DNA of 64,000 nt, taken from NCBI RefSeq assembly GCF_018614415.1, contig NZ_JAGGOO010000006.1, positions 1-64,000 on the forward strand. The letters run 5' to 3'. This DNA comes from Streptomyces sp. ISL-12 (GTDB lineage: Bacteria > Actinomycetota > Actinomycetes > Streptomycetales > Streptomycetaceae). Position 1 is the stretch's first letter. Every line of letters begins with the position of its first letter. Below the pieces are notes generated by a model. It did no database searches. It was not told the origin of the DNA and saw only the letters and a list, made by a program, of their open reading frames with translations. Positions 9,915 through 52,227 of the stretch are shown piece by piece. A program made the translations under genes and the position numbers.

Positions 9915-10814
9915 ATGGCTTTCGAACCGCCGCGGCGTCTGGTCAGGGCGCTCGGTGAGACGGCACCGGACGGTGACGACTGGTTGGCGAGTCTGCCCGA
10001 GGCGGCTCGCCAAGCCGTCGGTCTACGCGGGTTGACCGTCGAGCGGACGGTGGTGCCCGGCGGGCGCGGCAGCCTGGTGGTGCTGGTGCACACCGCCGAC
10101 GGGACGCCCGCGGTGCTGAAGCTGGCCCCGCCCCGGGCGCGGCCGGAGAGCGAGCGGGCGGCGCTGGCGCACTGGGACGGCCGGGGTGCCGTGCGGTTGC
10201 TGGAGCCTTTCGTGACCGAGGGCGTCCTGCTGCTGGAGCGGCTGCATCCGGAGGTGTCGGTGCGGTCGCTGCCGGAGGCGCGGGCGCTGCTGGAGGCGGC
10301 GGGGTCGCTGCGGCGGCTGTGGGTGGCGCCGCCCGCGGAGCATCCCTTCGAGACGGTGGCCGAGCGGACCGGGCGGCAGGCGGCGGCGATGCGCGCGGGG
10401 GCCGAGGCCGACCCGGCGGTGGCGCCGCTGGTGGACGCGGCCCTGGCGGTGCGCGCGGAGCTGCTGGCCGGGCCTGCTCAGGAGCGGTTGCTGCACGGTA
10501 CGTTCCGGCAGAGCAAGGTGCTCGCCGGGGACCGGATGCCGTGGCTGGCCGTGGGGCCCGACCCGGTGGTGGGCGAGCCGGCCTTCGACCTGGCCCGGCT
10601 GGTGCGGGACCGGGTGGAGGACCTGATCGCCCAGCCGTCCGGCGCCTCCACGGTCCGGCGCCGGATCAAGCGGCTCGCGGAGTCCCTGGAGGTCGACCGG
10701 GAGCGGCTGCGCGGCTGGACCCTGTTCCGGGCCGTGGAGTCGGGCGTACGGGCGTCGCGGGTCGGCCGCCCCCAGGACGCGGAACTGCTGCTGGAGTTCG
10801 CGGGCTGGCTGTGA
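9915..10814 (+). CDS. Aminoglycoside/hydroxyurea phosphotransferase-family protein with degenerate catalytic loop
   Basis: 299 aa. Overall layout matches the APH/hydroxyurea phosphotransferase family: an N-lobe with VLKLAPP (ATP-binding Lys region, about residue 74), a hinge LLLERL, and a C-lobe ending in PDPVVGEPAFDLARLVRDR, the family's metal-binding segment. The catalytic loop, normally HGDxHxxN, reads LLHGTFRQSKVLA: the catalytic Asp is Thr and the Asn is Lys. It may therefore be a pseudokinase or use another mechanism, and annotation as antibiotic resistance would be unsafe. Last gene of the rightward trio; followed by the composite repeat. Confidence 0.8.
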   Translation: MAFEPPRRLVRALGETAPDGDDWLASLPEAARQAVGLRGLTVERTVVPGGRGSLVVLVHTADGTPAVLKLAPPRARPESERAALAHWDGRGAVRLLEPFVTEGVLLLERLHPEVSVRSLPEARALLEAAGSLRRLWVAPPAEHPFETVAERTGRQAAAMRAGAEADPAVAPLVDAALAVRAELLAGPAQERLLHGTFRQSKVLAGDRMPWLAVGPDPVVGEPAFDLARLVRDRVEDLIAQPSGASTVRRRIKRLAESLEVDRERLRGWTLFRAVESGVRASRVGRPQDAELLLEFAGWL

Positions 10815-10844
10815 GGGTCGCCTCCGGCGGTGCCGAGGGTGGCC

Positions 10845-10975
10845 GCCTGCGGGGGCCCGTGGCCGGGGGATGAGGGTGCGCGGAGGGCGTCCCGTCGCGG
10901 GGCGGCTCTGGCGGGTGCCTGCGGCGGCCCGTGGCCGGCCGGTGGGGGTGCGCGGAGCGCGTCCGGTGGTCTTGT
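10845..10975. repeat. Composite repeat, part C (two degenerate tandem units)
   Basis: Two related units (10845-10904 and 10917-10975) share CCTGCGG-GG-CCCGTGGCCGG and then GGGTGCGCGGAG-GCGTCC. A similar unit stands at 50589-50640 in front of the second copy of parts A and B. No coding potential is evident. Confidence 0.55.
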
Positions 10976-10991
10976 GGGGCGGGGCCGGGCC

Positions 10992-11082
10992 GGGGGGTGT
11001 CCGTCCTCGGAACGGCGCGGAATCGGTCGGCCACGGGGGTGGACGGCGCGGACGCGCCGACCGCTGCGGGCGGACACCCCCC
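10992..11082. repeat. Composite repeat, part A copy 1 (91 bp, 12-bp terminal inverted repeats)
   Basis: Ends are GGGGGGTGTCCG and CGGACACCCCCC, a perfect 12-bp inverted repeat. By my count it is about 87% identical, without gaps, to 50664-50754; the first 37 bases are identical. An internal GGTCGGC/GCCGACC pair adds structure. It lies between convergent genes. Confidence 0.8.
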
Positions 11083-11150
11083 GGCCCGGCCCCTTCTCGC
11101 CGTTCGCGGCTGTCCGAGTCCCGCGGGGCAGCCGCCATCCAGCCGTGGCT

Positions 11151-11261
11151 ACGGGCATTCGTGCCCCTGGGGCGGCGCGGGTGGGCGATGGGGGTCCCCG
11201 TTCGCGAAGCCGGGAGTGGCGGAGGCACCCCGTCGCGCTGGGCCGCGCACCCACCCCCGCG
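11151..11261. repeat. Composite repeat, part B copy 1 (divergent)
   Basis: Shares CGGGCA-TCGTGCC, GGGGCGGC-CGGGTGGGCG and GGCACCCCG...GGGCCGCGC-ACCCACCCCCGCG with the two copies at 50831 and 51028, but has an insertion of about 35 bp in the middle. Together with parts C and A it fills the 481-bp gap 10815-11295, which has no gene I can support. Confidence 0.6.
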
Positions 11262-11285
11262 CCGGGGGCTGTGGAGCCCCCGGCG
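11260..11285 (-). terminator. Terminator downstream of proS
   Basis: Perfect 11-bp stem CGCCGGGGGCT / AGCCCCCGGCG with a GTGG tetraloop, 10 nt past the proS stop. It abuts the end of the composite repeat and could serve both strands. Confidence 0.75.
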
Positions 11286-11295
11286 GCCGTGGCGG

Positions 11296-12999
11296 TCAGG
11301 CCGTGATGCGGGTGATGGCCTCGTCCACCGTCACTTCCTCGCGCTCGCCGGTGCGGCGGTCCTTGAGTTCGACGACGCCCTCGGCGGAGCGACGGCCGGC
11401 GACCAGGATCTGCGGTACGCCGATCAGCTCCGCGTCGGTGAACTTCACGCCCGGGGAGACCCCGGCCCGGTCGTCGACCAGGACGCGGACGCCGGCGGCG
11501 GCGAGCTTCTCCGAGATGTCCAGGGCCAGCTCGGTCTGGAGGGCCTTGCCGGCGGCGACCACGTGCACGTCGGCCGGTGCGACCTCCTTGGACCAGATCA
11601 GGCCCTTGTCGTCGGCGTGCTGCTCGGCGAGGGCGGCCACCGCGCGGGAGACGCCGATGCCGTAGGAGCCCATGGTGACGCGGACCGGCTTGCCGTTCTG
11701 GCCGAGGACGTCGAGCTTGAGGGCGTCGGCGTACTTGCGGCCCAGCTGGAAGATGTGGCCGATCTCGATGGCGCGGTCCAGCTTGAGGCCGGTGCCGCAC
11801 TTCGGGCAGGGGTCACCATCCTGCACGACGACGACGTCGACGTACGCGTCGACCTCGAAGTCGCGGCCGGCGACGACGTTCTTGGCGTGGGTGTGCTCCT
11901 TGTTGGCGCCCGTGATCCACGCGGTGCCCGGCGCCACGCGGGGGTCGGCGATGTACGTCACCTTCTCGCCCAGGCCCTGCGGACCGACGTAGCCGCGGAC
12001 CAGGTCGGGGCGGCCCACGAAGTCCTCGGCGGTGACCAGCTCGACGGCGGCGGGCGCGAAGTGCGCCTCGACCTTGTCCAGGTCGACCTCGCGGTCACCG
12101 GGCACGCCCACGGCGACGATCTCGCCGTCCACCTTGACCAGCAGGTTCTTCAGGGTGGCGGAGGCGGGGACGCCGAGGGAGGCGGCGAGGGTCTCGATGG
12201 TGGGGGTGTCGGGGGTGGGGATCTCCTCCAGAGCGGGCACGTCCGCGGCGTCGACCGGCTTCAGCTCGAAGGTGATCGCCTCGGTGTTGGCGGCGTAGTC
12301 GCAGTTCGGGCAGTCGGCGAAGGTGTCCTCGCCGGCCTCGGCGGGGGCGAGGAACTCCTCCGACTTGGAGCCGCCCATCGCGCCGGCGGTCGCGGCGCAG
12401 ATGCGGTAGTCCAGGCCGAGGCGCTCGAAGATGCGCTGGTAGGCGGCGCGGTGCAGGGCGTAGGACTCGGCGAGGCCCTCGTCGGCGGTGTCGAAGGAGT
12501 AGGAGTCCTTCATCAGGAATTCGCGGCCCCGCAGGATGCCGGCCCGGGGCCGGGCCTCGTCGCGGTACTTGTTGGCGATCTGGTAGAGGATGACGGGGAG
12601 GTCCTTGTAGGAGGACGCCTGGTCCTTCACCAGCAGGGTGAAGATCTCCTCGTGGGTGGGGCCGAGCAGGTAGTCGCCGCCCTTGCGGTCCTGGAGGCGG
12701 AAGAGTTCGGGGCCGTACTCCTCCCAGCGGCCGGTGGCCTCGTAGGGCTCGCGGGGCAGCAGGGAGGGGAGGGTCACCTCCTGGGCGCCGATGGCGTCCA
12801 TCTCCTCGCGGACGATGCGCTCCACGTTGGCCAGGACCTTCTTGCCGAGCGGCAGCCAGCTCCACAGGCCGGCGGCGGTGCGGCGGACGTAGCCGGCGCG
12901 GACCAGCAGCTTGTGGCTGAGGACCTCGGCGTCCGCCGGGTCGTCGCGCAGCGTCTTCGCCAATACCTTCGACATGCGCTGGACCGGTGCGTTCGCCAT
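11296..12999 (-). CDS. proS: Prolyl-tRNA synthetase (bacterial type, with editing insertion)
   Basis: 567 aa class II synthetase charging tRNA-Pro. Motif 1 region [18 protein letters not shown], motif 2 ([21 protein letters not shown]), motif 3 ([17 protein letters not shown]) and the C-terminal anticodon-binding domain are all visible. Between motifs 2 and 3 (about 225-390) lies the YbaK/INS editing domain of bacterial-type ProRS. The ATG at 12999 is followed by the expected N-terminus ([19 protein letters not shown]). Monocistronic in appearance, with a strong hairpin downstream and a GNAT gene 75 bp upstream. Confidence 0.97.
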
Positions 13000-41739: not shown

Positions 41740-41747
41740 CTACGCAG

Positions 41748-42593
41748 ATGAGAGATACACCCCGCCCACAGGGAACTGTGGGTGACCCCAGGCCGGGGCC
41801 TCCCCAGCTGCGGCCTGGTCGTGCCCTCGCGCACACAAACGGAGCCTTTGGCTTCGGATCTCCTCACCGATCGGACGGTCGCTCGCCCCAAACCCCCCGG
41901 GGCGCGCGACGTTCCGGTCCGTTCGGCCGCCTCGGAACCACCCCCCCTGTTCCGGGGCGGCCGACCTCCCCCTCCCGCTCCCCCCTCCTCCTTCTCGGGG
42001 GCATCGGGCTGCCCGCCCTGCTCTTCGCGCTGATCACCTGGCAGGTCGTCGCGGACGGTCCGCTGATCCGGGTGGACGAGCGGCTGAGCAGGGCCCTTGT
42101 CCGTCCGGACCGGTTCTCCGAACTCCTCGCCGACCTCGGCAACACCCAGGTCGCACTGCCCGTGCTCGTGGCCGCGCTGACGTACGCGGCCTGGCGCGGG
42201 CGGTCCACCGGTACAGACCAATGGTGGCTGCCGCCCCTCGCCGGGGCGCTGCTGATGGCACTGGTGCCGGCGCTGGTCGTCCCCCTCAAGGTCTGGACCG
42301 ACCGCCCCGGCACCCCTGCCGTGGAACCGGCCACCGGCTACTACCCCTCCGGCCACACCGCCACCGCGGTCGTCGCCTACGGCGCGGCGGTGCTGGTACT
42401 GCTGCCCCTGCTGCGCTCGGCGGCCGTCCGCCGGTGGCTGTGCCTGGCCGGCGCGGTCCTCGTCCTCGCCGCCTCCTACGGGCTGGTCCGGCGGGGCTAC
42501 CACTGGCCACTGGACGTGGTGGCCAGCTGGTGCCTGTTCGGCACGCTGCTGTTCTGCCTGCGCCTCCTGGTGGGCCGCCGCCGGACCGGGTGA
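41748..42593 (+). CDS. PAP2-family membrane phosphatase
   Basis: 281 aa. A Pro/Arg-rich cytoplasmic N-terminus (about 1-80) is followed by six TM helices. The three phosphatase motifs are KVWTDRP, YYPSGHTATAVVA and VRRGYHWPLDVVA (active-site His residues). Likely substrates are lipid phosphates such as phosphatidate or polyprenyl diphosphate. The ATG at 41748 is preferred on the basis of the -10 placement; a GTG at 41667 would add 27 residues. It ends 8 bp before the convergent flavoenzyme gene, with no terminator between. Confidence 0.88.
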   Translation: MRDTPRPQGTVGDPRPGPPQLRPGRALAHTNGAFGFGSPHRSDGRSPQTPRGARRSGPFGRLGTTPPVPGRPTSPSRSPLLLLGGIGLPALLFALITWQVVADGPLIRVDERLSRALVRPDRFSELLADLGNTQVALPVLVAALTYAAWRGRSTGTDQWWLPPLAGALLMALVPALVVPLKVWTDRPGTPAVEPATGYYPSGHTATAVVAYGAAVLVLLPLLRSAAVRRWLCLAGAVLVLAASYGLVRRGYHWPLDVVASWCLFGTLLFCLRLLVGRRRTG

Positions 42594-49857: not shown

Positions 49858-49900
49858 CAACAAGTGATTCCGTTGTTGCCATTTGGTTACGCGACGGAAT
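49858..49900. promoter_or_regulatory. Inverted repeats upstream of the ALDH2-pot-puuB operon
   Basis: CAACAA-N9-TTGTTG (49858-49878) overlaps ATTCCGT (49867-49873), which pairs with ACGGAAT (49894-49900). The minus strand reads CAACAACGGAAT, which resembles AACAACGGATTT in the ALDH3/AsnC region, so it is a candidate AsnC/Lrp site. The spacer 49772-49942 holds no gene. Confidence 0.55.
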
Positions 49901-49942
49901 CTGTCGACTGGGTGTCGAGTGGCCGTGGAAAAGGGGGACGGG

Positions 49943-50557
49943 GTGTCAGTGGTGCGTGCGACAGTGGCGTGCATGGGAGAGGTGACGGGGGCGTCGGGTG
50001 GTCGGGAAGCGCTGGTCGGGGCGGTGCGGGCGGGGGCTCGCGTCAAGTACCTGTACTTCTGGGGGCATCGGCCGGGTCCGGGCGGGCGGGTCGGGGCGGG
50101 CTGTCTGAGTCAGTGGTGGCCGTCGCCGTTCACGGTGGACGGGGTGGAGTACGCGACCGCCGAGCACTGGATGATGGCCGGCAAGGCCCGGCTGTTCCGG
50201 GACGCGGAGGCGGAACGCCGGGTGCTGGCGGCGGGGCATCCCGCCGAGGCGAAGAAGGCGGGGCGGCTGGTGCGGGGCTTCGACGAGGCGATATGGGAAC
50301 GGGAGCGGTTCGGGATCGTCGTCGAGGGCAGCGTGCACAAGTTCGCGACGGACACGGCGCTGCGGGAGTTTCTGCTGGGCACGGGGGACCGGGTGCTGGT
50401 GGAGGCGAGTCCCGTGGACCGGGTCTGGGGCATCGGCCTCGCCGCTACGGAGGAGGGGGCGGGGGATCCGGAGCGGTGGCGGGGCGCGAATCTGCTGGGG
50501 TTCGCGTTGATGGAGGCGCGGGGGAGGCTGCGGAGGGGCGGGGGCGGTAGGGCGTAG
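49943..50557 (+). CDS. NADAR (YbiA/DUF1768) family protein
   Basis: 204 aa. The core YFWGHRPGPGGRVGAGCLSQWWPSPFTVDG, YATAEHWMMAGKARLF and VWGIGLA is diagnostic of NADAR. Characterised members hydrolyse N-glycosidic bonds in reactive riboflavin intermediates or remove ADP-ribose from guanine in DNA. Which applies here is unknown. The GTG at 49943 was chosen because AAGGGGGA precedes it; an ATG at 49973 is possible. It stands alone, upstream of the second composite repeat, with no DarT or RibA-like partner in view. Confidence 0.88.
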   Translation: MSVVRATVACMGEVTGASGGREALVGAVRAGARVKYLYFWGHRPGPGGRVGAGCLSQWWPSPFTVDGVEYATAEHWMMAGKARLFRDAEAERRVLAAGHPAEAKKAGRLVRGFDEAIWERERFGIVVEGSVHKFATDTALREFLLGTGDRVLVEASPVDRVWGIGLAATEEGAGDPERWRGANLLGFALMEARGRLRRGGGGRA

Positions 50558-50588
50558 GACGTAGGGCGGGTACGGGTCGTGGGTGGGA

Positions 50589-50640
50589 TGCCTGCGGCGC
50601 CTGTGCGGGTTCGGTGGGGGTGCGCGTAGCGCCCACGGTG
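50589..50640. repeat. Composite repeat, part C copy 2
   Basis: TGCCTGCGGCG...GGTGGGGGTGCGCG-AGCGC matches the units at 10845-10975 and stands, as there, directly before part A. Confidence 0.5.
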
Positions 50641-50663
50641 CGGTGCGTGGTCGGGGCCGGGGT

Positions 50664-50754
50664 GGGGGGTGTCCGTCCTCGGAACGGCGCGGAATCGGTC
50701 ACTGACGGGGGTGCAGCGTGTCGACGCGCCAACCACTGCGGGCGGACACCCCCC
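50664..50754. repeat. Composite repeat, part A copy 2
   Basis: Same 91-bp length, 12-bp perfect terminal inverted repeat and ungapped alignment with 10992-11082 (12 differences by my count, all in the interior right of base 37). Confidence 0.8.
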
Positions 50755-50830
50755 ACCCCGTCCCCTTCCCGCCGTACGCGGGTGCGGGTCCGTACCCCGC
50801 CCGACCGCGGGCGGCGCGAGCAGCGCACAC

Positions 50831-50936
50831 CGCGTCACCGCGGGCAATCGTGCCGCCAGGGGCGGCACGGGTGGGCGCGGCGGCACCCCGCCGGCGCCGG
50901 GCCGCGCCACCCACCCCCGCGTCAACCACAACGCCG
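50831..50936. repeat. Composite repeat, part B copy 2a (106 bp)
   Basis: Identical over 106 bp to 51028-51133. Internal stem GGGTGGGCGCGG / CCGCGCCACCC (one bulge). A third fragment of its right end is at 50938-50970. The 624-bp gap 50558-51181 contains nothing but these repeats. Confidence 0.85.
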
Positions 50937-51027
50937 GGCCGCACCCACCCCCGCATCCACCACAACGCCGGATACCGGATAGGCCCCGGGGGACTCGCGT
51001 ACCCGCGTAACCGCAGGCACCCCAGGC

Positions 51028-51133
51028 CGCGTCACCGCGGGCAATCGTGCCGCCAGGGGCGGCACGGGTGGGCGCGGCGGCACCCCGCCGGCGCCGGGCC
51101 GCGCCACCCACCCCCGCGTCAACCACAACGCCG
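51028..51133. repeat. Composite repeat, part B copy 2b (106 bp)
   Basis: Perfect direct repeat of 50831-50936, 197 bp downstream (start to start). Lies 48 bp before the stop of the convergent DUF4190 gene. Confidence 0.85.
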
Positions 51134-51181
51134 TACACCGAACAGCCCGGCCCAGTTCACCCCCGGCCCCCGCCGGCAGGC

Positions 51182-52069
51182 CTACGCGCTGGTGAAGATG
51201 AGGACCGCGAACCCGGCCCCCAGCGCGATACCGAACGCCCCGCAGATGATGCCGGCCAGCGCCTGGCCGGAGTTGGTCGCCTCGCCCTTGCGCGCCTTCG
51301 CCCGCCCGACCACGCCGAAGATCACGCCCAGGACGCCCAGCAGGATGGCGATCGGCCACATGCAGAAACCCACGGCCGCGATGATCCCGAGGACGAGACC
51401 GGCCGTGCCCATCCCGTTCCTCGGCGGCATCGGCCCCATGCCCTGCCAGCCGTAGTAGCCCTGCGGCTGCGGACCGCCGCCGTAACCGGGGCCGGGGCCG
51501 TGGCCCGGATATCCGTAGGCGCCGGGGTAGCCGTAGGGGGCCTGGCCCGGTCCGTCGGGGGCGATCGGGGGCGGGGGGACGACGGGAGTACGGGCCTGGC
51601 CGTGCGGCGGGGTGGACGTCGGCGCCGCGAAGGGGTTGGCCGCTCCCTGCGACGGAGAAGAAGACGCGGGCGCGGGTGCCGCGGGGGTCGGTGGGGCGAA
51701 CGCGGCGTCGTGGGGCGCCGCGCCCGGGCCGGACGGGGTCGCCCACGGCTGGGGCGGCGGTGTCGGGGCCGCCTCGGCGGGCTGGTCGCCCAGGGTGGGT
51801 ATGGACGTGACCGTCTGGTGGTCCGACTCGGGGGCGGACGGCGCCGGCCACGGCGTCGAGCCGCCCGGCGCGGGGGCGGACAGGCCGGAGCCGCCGGACG
51901 CGTCCGGGGAGTCGTTGACCGGCGGCGGCCAGACCTTGCCACCGTCAGACCGGTCCGCCGGCGCCTGCCCGGTCCCGGCCACCGCGTCGGCCGTGTCTCT
52001 TCGCCCCGCACCGGGCGGCGCCGTCGGTCCGTGCGCGTCGGCTTCCGGCGTCTGCGCGTCGTCGGACAT
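51182..52069 (-). CDS. DUF4190-domain membrane protein with long Pro-rich N-terminus
   Basis: 295 aa. Residues 1-215 are disordered, Pro/Ala/Gly/Ser-rich, ending with Tyr-Gly-Pro repeats (APYGYPGAYGYPGHGPGPGY). The last 75 residues are the DUF4190 unit: two TM helices (GLVLGIIAAVGFCMWPIAILLG and AGIICGAFGIALGAGFAVLI) around a short basic loop (VVGRAKARKGEAT). Such proteins are common and uncharacterised in actinobacteria. ATG with GAGGGG upstream. Convergent with NADAR across the repeat region; divergent from the deaminase gene. Confidence 0.87.
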   Translation of the reverse strand: MSDDAQTPEADAHGPTAPPGAGRRDTADAVAGTGQAPADRSDGGKVWPPPVNDSPDASGGSGLSAPAPGGSTPWPAPSAPESDHQTVTSIPTLGDQPAEAAPTPPPQPWATPSGPGAAPHDAAFAPPTPAAPAPASSSPSQGAANPFAAPTSTPPHGQARTPVVPPPPIAPDGPGQAPYGYPGAYGYPGHGPGPGYGGGPQPQGYYGWQGMGPMPPRNGMGTAGLVLGIIAAVGFCMWPIAILLGVLGVIFGVVGRAKARKGEATNSGQALAGIICGAFGIALGAGFAVLIFTSA

Positions 52070-52227
52070 GCGCGGGTCCCCTCTGTTCGAACGTGCCGTC
52101 ATGCTACGGCGCGTACCCTCCCGCCGGGCCCCCGGCCTACGATGATCCCGAGTCACGATCAGCCGATCACCCGCGTCCCGCCGGGCACCCACCCGCCGCC
52201 GGACGCCCCGTTCCGGGGAGGAACCCC

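Follow-up and report, generated by a model that had tools for sequence, protein, structure and literature searches.

A dispersed family of structured intergenic repeats in Streptomycetaceae, apparently without earlier description

What is the composite sequence that recurs between genes in this stretch of Streptomyces DNA (64,000 nucleotides, here called the window), and what keeps its copies alike? A first-pass annotation of the sequence had reported the same three parts, C, A and B, in the same order and orientation in two gaps that both sit between convergent genes, and our gene calls and the Pfam matches of the flanking genes bear this out. In each of the gaps 10815-11295 and 50558-51181 the + strand reads C unit first, then a long hairpin (A), then a B unit. 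Between the two gaps identity is 85% for A, 79% for C and 89% for B, the last over a short stretch only (11219-11261 vs 50877-50921). The first gap has a doubled C (from about 10845 and about 10913) and a single B (about 11148-11261, bounds drawn by eye around a blastn match spanning 11219-11261). The second gap has a single C (about 50586) and a doubled B (50828-50935 and 51027-51132), probably a recent local duplication. The 91-bp inverted repeat reported at 10992-11082 is exact, running from a G-run to a C-run, and the base of the full hairpin lies at 10978-11093. The features are as follows.

9915-10814, + strand: gene of the APH_6_hur kinase family, flanking the first gap (Pfam)
10845-10895, + strand: extra first C unit, diverged (by eye; GGGTGCGCGGAGGGCG at 10874; GCCTGCGG 153 bases ahead of the core)
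10913-10968, + strand: C unit adjoining hairpin A (79% match to C of the second copy)
10978-11093, – strand (from wobble pairs): A, long hairpin; internal-loop motif conserved, apical loop variable
11094-11128, + strand: A tail (CGCCGTTCGCGG), conserved right edge of the element (conservation profile; R1 match 10978-11128)
11148-11261, + strand: B unit (by eye; 11219-11261 vs 50877-50921, 89%)
11296-12999, – strand: gene for a class II tRNA synthetase with editing and anticodon domains, flanking the first gap (Pfam), which we take to be prolyl-tRNA synthetase, proS
49883-50557, + strand: gene with a NADAR domain, flanking the second gap (Pfam)
50586-50645, + strand: C unit of the second gap (match to first-gap C)
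50650-50765, – strand: A, long hairpin, second window copy (blastn, covariance-model search, alignment)
50766-50800, + strand: A tail (CGCCGTACGCGGGTGCGGGT) of the second copy (model match, conservation profile)
50828-50935, + strand: B unit, copy one of the second gap (blastn)
51027-51132, + strand: B unit, copy two of the second gap (100% identical to copy one over the matched 106 bp)
51182-52192, – strand: gene with DUF4190, flanking the second gap (Pfam)

The fold energy of the hairpin on the + strand is far below that of 200 shuffled sequences (z –8.6). Within the window, CACCCACCCCCGCG has 6 matches against 0.34 expected, which is significant, and GGGTGCGCGGAG(N)GCG alone has 6 against 3.1 expected, which is not. 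Rfam 15 gave no match at the element, either in the window at the gathering score or for the first copy at E up to 5. The sole gathering-threshold Rfam match in the window is Scr5676 (Streptomyces RNA 5676) at 41746-41875 on the + strand, at 125 bits.

Structure of the hairpin and its folding strand

Hairpin A is a long stem with covarying helices, in which the internal-loop motif (CCTCGG...CTGCGG on the + strand) is almost constant and the apical loop is free; it measures about 116 bp, or about 215 bp together with C. When 118 distinct copies are read on the minus strand, 97.5% of the cells at 31 proposed pairs are paired, and pairing falls to 43-53% in controls with slid partners. Double-sided changes occur at 9 pairs and in 60 cells, compared to 3.4 and 10.5 in shuffles, and none of 500 shuffles reaches 60 cells, in a test that takes no account of shared ancestry. 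The inner helix, P2, is rebuilt with compensatory changes between subtypes and in a second genus (+ strand variants GGCGCG/CGCGCC, CCGGCG/CGCCGG, CGGGCG/CGCCCG and TGCGCAC/GTGCGCA). Because the 118-copy alignment and the table of P2 variants were gathered with motifs of both arms, motif constancy there is partly built in; in 37 copies gathered by blastn without the motif, CCTCGG and CTGCGG are nearly invariant. The covariation supports the view of the first-pass annotation that this is a structured family.

To which strand the fold belongs can be read from the imperfect pairs. In the basal stem of 119 copies, C.A on the + strand (G.U on the minus strand) occurs 165 times and G.T on the + strand 11 times, and standard pairing at two basal positions is seen in 116 and 114 of the 119 copies on the minus strand as compared to 41 and 37 on the plus strand. 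Across 206 records of P2 the + strand has 328 C.A and 3 G.T, or 27 and 3 when each distinct P2 is counted once. Apart from C.A on the + strand, the other common states at variable pairs are Watson-Crick. This excess of C.A at variable pairs favours the minus strand over the + orientation first given to the hairpin, and we consider it quite probable, judging from the sequences, that the minus strand is the one that folds, as RNA or as single-stranded DNA; DNA also tolerates G.T pairs. Against the minus strand, the + strand is slightly more stable (–103.9 vs –91.3 for copy one, –93.8 vs –90.1 for copy two), and two invariant pairs are wobbles on the + strand.

Two proposals for the apical loop were rejected. 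As a hidden hairpin it had a mean z of –0.13 on the + strand and –0.27 on the minus strand (110 loops, unfiltered set), which gives no support. As a guide to its own flanks it had no clear excess over shuffled pairings (146 copies, unfiltered set): the longest match averaged 7.74 vs 7.56 bases in the sense and 7.30 vs 7.39 in the antisense direction, compared with shuffled pairings and without a significance test.

Copies, modules and position relative to genes

A genome-wide search, named in the first-pass annotation as the check on whether the window holds the only two copies, found 10 good copies of A in the source genome (blastn, 105-255 bits, among the best 40 of 176 candidates scored), after which matches drop to self-complement and chance. 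One of the 10 is cut by a contig end, and another ends 8 bases short of one. All nine good matches of C in this genome lie directly ahead of an A, and B is found both beside A and elsewhere (e.g., on contigs C197, C87 and C162). C and A are thus one element here and B is an associated repeat. The proposed composite unit is corrected to this extent: in this genome C is always found with A, and B can occur alone. Among copies from all genomes, B lies 80-600 bp downstream on the same strand in 65 of 145 right-arm copies and never upstream or inverted, and 84 of 149 have the C motif no more than 220 bp upstream. In other surrounding DNA (unfiltered set), B turned up once in 577 kb and there were 8 C motifs in 414 kb. 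Module content is specific to the genome: C accompanies 3/28 copies and B 25/28 in G026, C 20/20 and B 2/20 in G007, and C 8/8 and B 4/8 in the source genome. Two truncated elements from other genomes (L120 and L138) run from the left arm of A into B-like sequence, with the right arm missing. Hairpin A is the core of the element, and C and B are accessories in fixed order and strand where they are present.

Two further observations concern the modules. At the proS locus of G136 (L213), a tail unit around GCCGTACGCGGCTGCCGCCGCCAACGCTCCG stands in tandem repeat to the right of the hairpin. In L002, L007, L214 and L215 a GC-rich sequence of the CCTGAACGGCCTGGGAGGTACCCCCAGG or GCTCGAGCGAAGCCG type is inserted in the B units, and this insert is apparently another intergenic repeat.

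In a search of 295 Streptomyces genomes (E 1e-12), 85 had a match to A and 210 had none; since two candidates were scored per genome, copy numbers from this search are floors. With the covariance model, 13/61 relatives were positive, as were 31/200 genomes (2/17 genera) in a family-wide sample and 3/296 genomes (1/198 genera) in a phylum-wide sample. Positive genomes have from 1 to about 31 matches, the maximum being in G026 (49 matches including those on the opposite strand, 31 distinct places by hand count). Loci with the exact core bear Streptomyces and Kitasatospora names among the 80 listed of at least 118 stretches, and the second genus (group g215) has diverged structural relatives with a different P2 sequence. 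In G633, from this second genus, some hairpins of two subtypes stand close together in inverted pairs (L347/L372, L355/L364 and L358/L368), with spacings of about 60-130 bp, and recall the organisation of BIMEs.

To place the copies relative to genes, we tallied the orientation of neighbours, with genes called by our own codon-usage script and not by a standard annotator. Of 153 copies found (135 with a full right arm), the 121 with both neighbours called entered the tally and 32 were left out; the 121 lie between convergent genes in 40 cases, codirectional genes in 67 and divergent genes in 14. The 529 background gaps of 20 bp or more in this DNA are 61 convergent, 349 codirectional and 119 divergent. 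When each locus is counted once, the 62 loci are 21 convergent, 32 codirectional and 9 divergent, so that there is an excess of convergent sites (21/62 vs 61/529; odds ratio 3.9, p 2e-5), while the divergent deficit is not significant (p 0.19). The idea that the element settles between convergent genes therefore holds as an enrichment (21/62 vs 61/529), although most copies lie elsewhere (40/121 convergent). Among codirectional genes, orientation is nearly random (41 to 26, p 0.09), as suits a repeat more than an RNA that acts in cis. We rejected a cis-regulatory RNA or riboswitch, as there is no constant orientation upstream of a gene class.

Enrichment between convergent genes is what one would expect if A were a cis-acting module of RNA 3' ends, that is, a bidirectional terminator or stabiliser common to the two genes. 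The spacing at the proS locus agrees with this, because in 7 of the 8 genomes that are filled C starts 8-19 bp past the stop codon of the left gene (counted by eye; 30 bp in the source genome), and so does one orthologous site where an ordinary GC hairpin is found when A is absent (L117 vs L267, by eye). However, two thirds of the loci are not convergent, the proS gap of the source genome retains an ordinary-looking hairpin beside proS as well (by eye), and the sequence conservation of the internal loop goes beyond the needs of a terminator. There is also no U-tract after the hairpin in the two window copies, the only ones inspected for it, and on this ground we rejected a Rho-independent terminator, which resembles A as a GC-rich hairpin at gene ends and differs from it in lacking the long conserved sequence and in having the U-tract. 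In S. lividans, passages of one study describe 1,640 transcript ends with a U-rich motif (PMC6742748), a motif that is absent beside hairpin A in the two window copies. We regard a cis-acting 3'-end module as improbable.

The near-random orientation to genes, together with the strict sequence conservation, would also suit a site acting at the DNA level, such as a cruciform or a site for a nucleoid or chromosome-organising protein. Speaking against such a site, we saw no orientation bias between chromosome halves in G007, the one genome tallied (7 + and 5 – left; 4 + and 4 – right), 210/295 Streptomyces genomes have no match, and the strand-asymmetric wobbles favour a single folded strand. Of the readings considered here, we find a DNA-level site the least probable.

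Orthologous sites, homogenisation and the search for a mover

The same gene neighbourhoods bear A in several species, and the copies occupy orthologous sites. Of 30 genomes compared at the proS locus, 8 are filled (7 found by script, plus L212, a one-base variant found by eye) and 22 are empty, two of them with the left gene uncalled; some empty sites have ordinary short hairpins. In one site without the element (L208, G133), the convergent stop codons are just 13 bp apart, with no recognisable terminator. Across the 8 filled copies the arms diverge by only 1.3% (58 columns, without a motif requirement). In 7 of the 8, the neighbouring gene differs by 12.8% at its third codon positions, and the apical loop differs by 33.6% (the 10 of 21 pairs that are of equal length).

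A copy is generally closer to the others in its own genome than to its orthologues. Two subtypes, 1 and 2, defined by the inner region, are never mixed in 24 genomes with at least 2 named copies and are mixed between genomes at 8 of 20 loci with at least 3 copies. This count takes in copies of known source (L141-L178 excluded), with one unclassified copy in each of three of the 24 genomes; 23 of the 24 have at least 2 classified copies and S. flaveolus has one. Because a common neighbour protein defined the loci, strict orthology may not hold within some of them. Among 153 right-arm copies (of 169; the 16 dropped were 14 real or truncated elements and two chance gene matches), median identity is 0.935 for the 673 pairs within a genome, 0.886 for the 179 orthologous pairs and 0.846 for the other 10,776; these comparisons are not independent, as they have genomes and ancestry in common. 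The copy from the same genome was closer in 96/123 comparisons and the orthologue in 27/123. When both neighbours are required, the orthologue median is 0.886 (146 pairs) and the own-genome copy is closer in 67/91; leaving out the two genomes richest in copies lowers the within-genome median to 0.911 (96 pairs). Homogenisation is incomplete, since G007 has two P2 subtypes side by side. We read these sequence patterns as concerted evolution of the copies within genomes, for which gene conversion, repeated replacement at the same sites and co-evolution with a common partner are candidate routes.

One account of such a pattern is a selfish, non-autonomous mobile element (MITE-like or REP-like), whose hairpin would be the substrate of a transposase encoded elsewhere and whose insertions would be tolerated at 3' intergenic sites. 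The variable copy number (1 to about 31), the patchy occupancy of an orthologous locus (8/30 filled), the near-random orientation, the truncated copies in other genomes and two source-genome copies that are 96% alike at unrelated loci (L004 and L007) all agree with mobility. We therefore looked for a mover and for traces of movement. There are no terminal inverted repeats: the inverse of the 9-base word at the left end occurs downstream once in 107 loci, and by the same count we rejected CCGCAGGC near 51010 as a mirrored end. The flanking non-coding DNA of filled and empty sites cannot be aligned, so a target-site duplication is not demonstrable, and four filled/empty pairs showed no clean insertion footprint (one pair, L111/L093, came from a chance hit of the motif within a gene). 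No transposase was seen by eye in the 25 largest of 142 clusters of neighbour proteins; Pfam was run on 10 neighbour proteins, and six neighbours in the source genome are ordinary genes. These results agree with the first-pass view that the unit is not an insertion sequence and has no transposase of its own, as none was seen in the elements or the neighbour clusters inspected. As a miniature element in the classical transposon sense, the other first-pass suggestion, it fails on the lack of terminal inverted repeats and on the copies at orthologous sites across species.

Movers acting from elsewhere fared no better. A REP is a short palindrome of some 20-40 bp, and hairpin A, at about 116 bp, is far longer. 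REP with a RAYT (Y1) transposase was rejected because Y1 is absent from 14 of 18 genomes with at least 10 matches; Y1 has no association with the element in the genus (34/85 vs 62/210, p 0.10), and none of the 30 Y1 loci inspected has an element. Retrotransposition by a resident reverse transcriptase was rejected as well, since RVT_1 is absent from 13 of the 18 copy-rich genomes, which may nevertheless have had one in the past. Collections of plasmids and phages gave no A match, and we saw no clearly decayed copy in the source genome (among the best 40 of 176 blastn candidates and the best 50 of 18,540 scored in the model search). A selfish mobile element is possible, and we think it rather unlikely.

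We favour, with confidence slightly better than even, the explanation that A represents a family of non-coding, structured repeats dispersed in Streptomycetaceae, broadly of the REP/BIME, ERIC and NEMIS kind, that favours gene 3' ends and whose minus-strand hairpin would be read in trans. A putative trans-acting factor, a protein or an enzyme, would recognise the minus-strand hairpin in the cell, as RNA or single-stranded DNA, and the likeness of the copies in one genome may stem from this recognition or from gene conversion between them. With no link to a transposase, Y1 or reverse transcriptase, no loop match and no U-tract, recognition by a trans-acting factor is the mechanism that we infer from the conservation and covariation. 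A narrower form of this explanation, in which selection keeps functional hairpins at their sites and all copies switch subtype jointly as they co-evolve with one putative trans-partner reading the minus-strand internal loop, we rate as low as the selfish element. A weaker proposal is that the transcribed hairpin may serve as a bidirectional transcript-end or mRNA-processing element, its long double-stranded RNA being a possible substrate of RNase III; this would explain the location between convergent genes, and a transcript-end role could be a by-product of hairpin recognition.

Relation to known repeats and significance

The family is apparently without earlier description, as the first-pass annotation had supposed: there is no Rfam family, and open-licence full text in PubMed Central, searched by repeat and hairpin terms and by six words of the element (12-14 bases; three unrelated papers were the sole hits), yielded no description or named repeat of it from Streptomyces. 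Nor did this search yield any account of interspersed hairpin repeats from the genus. The closest likeness is to ERIC/NEMIS and REP/BIME, which are also multicopy, non-coding and intergenic and fold as hairpins. In passages of one paper, these repeats are described as co-transcribed, REPs as clustering at gene 3' ends, and the stems of such RNAs as possible targets of ribonuclease recognition; interspersed hairpin repeats are reported there from several other bacteria (PMC1590033). The same passages describe the Ype and Efa elements (from Yersinia pestis and Enterococcus faecalis), which are larger than REPs and prefer the 3' ends of coding sequences (PMC1590033), and which we liken to the A family by description only. 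In contrast to ERIC/NEMIS and REP/BIME, the A family occurs in a different taxon, has up to three modules and strand-specific covariation, is uniform in subtype per genome across orthologous sites and has no association with a REP-type transposase; it is set apart from them by description and not by sequence comparison.

Three other groups invite comparison. Mobile/repeat sequence candidates (MRSC) have inconsistent gene orientation as a class criterion, and MRSC-65-2 is like A in having a single long stem backed by covariation and many copies per genome, and unlike it in having more than 20,000 members in diverse phyla, according to passages of the source (PMC11109978). That study counts 250 MRSC candidates and covers S. 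avermitilis (PMC11109978), and the A family may be one of them. In Streptomyces, passages of two further papers describe cutoRNAs, overlapping 3' transcripts at convergent genes (PMC3765725), and palindromes that give abundant short RNAs, many in 3' UTRs (PMC4681348). These cutoRNAs and palindromic 3'-UTR fragments are defined by transcription, whereas the A family is defined by common sequence.

Two of the ten source-genome copies lie at contig ends, and such repeats may thus help to break Streptomyces assemblies. Taken together, the family is an unusually clean case, in which sites are common to species, the arms are frozen, the loop drifts and subtypes differ between genomes while most single genomes are uniform, and this makes two questions testable, namely what maintains such repeats and what reads them. 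If the narrower reading is true, in which selection keeps the hairpins in place and one partner reads them, the array would be a new class of genome-wide hairpin read in trans, neither junk nor terminator.
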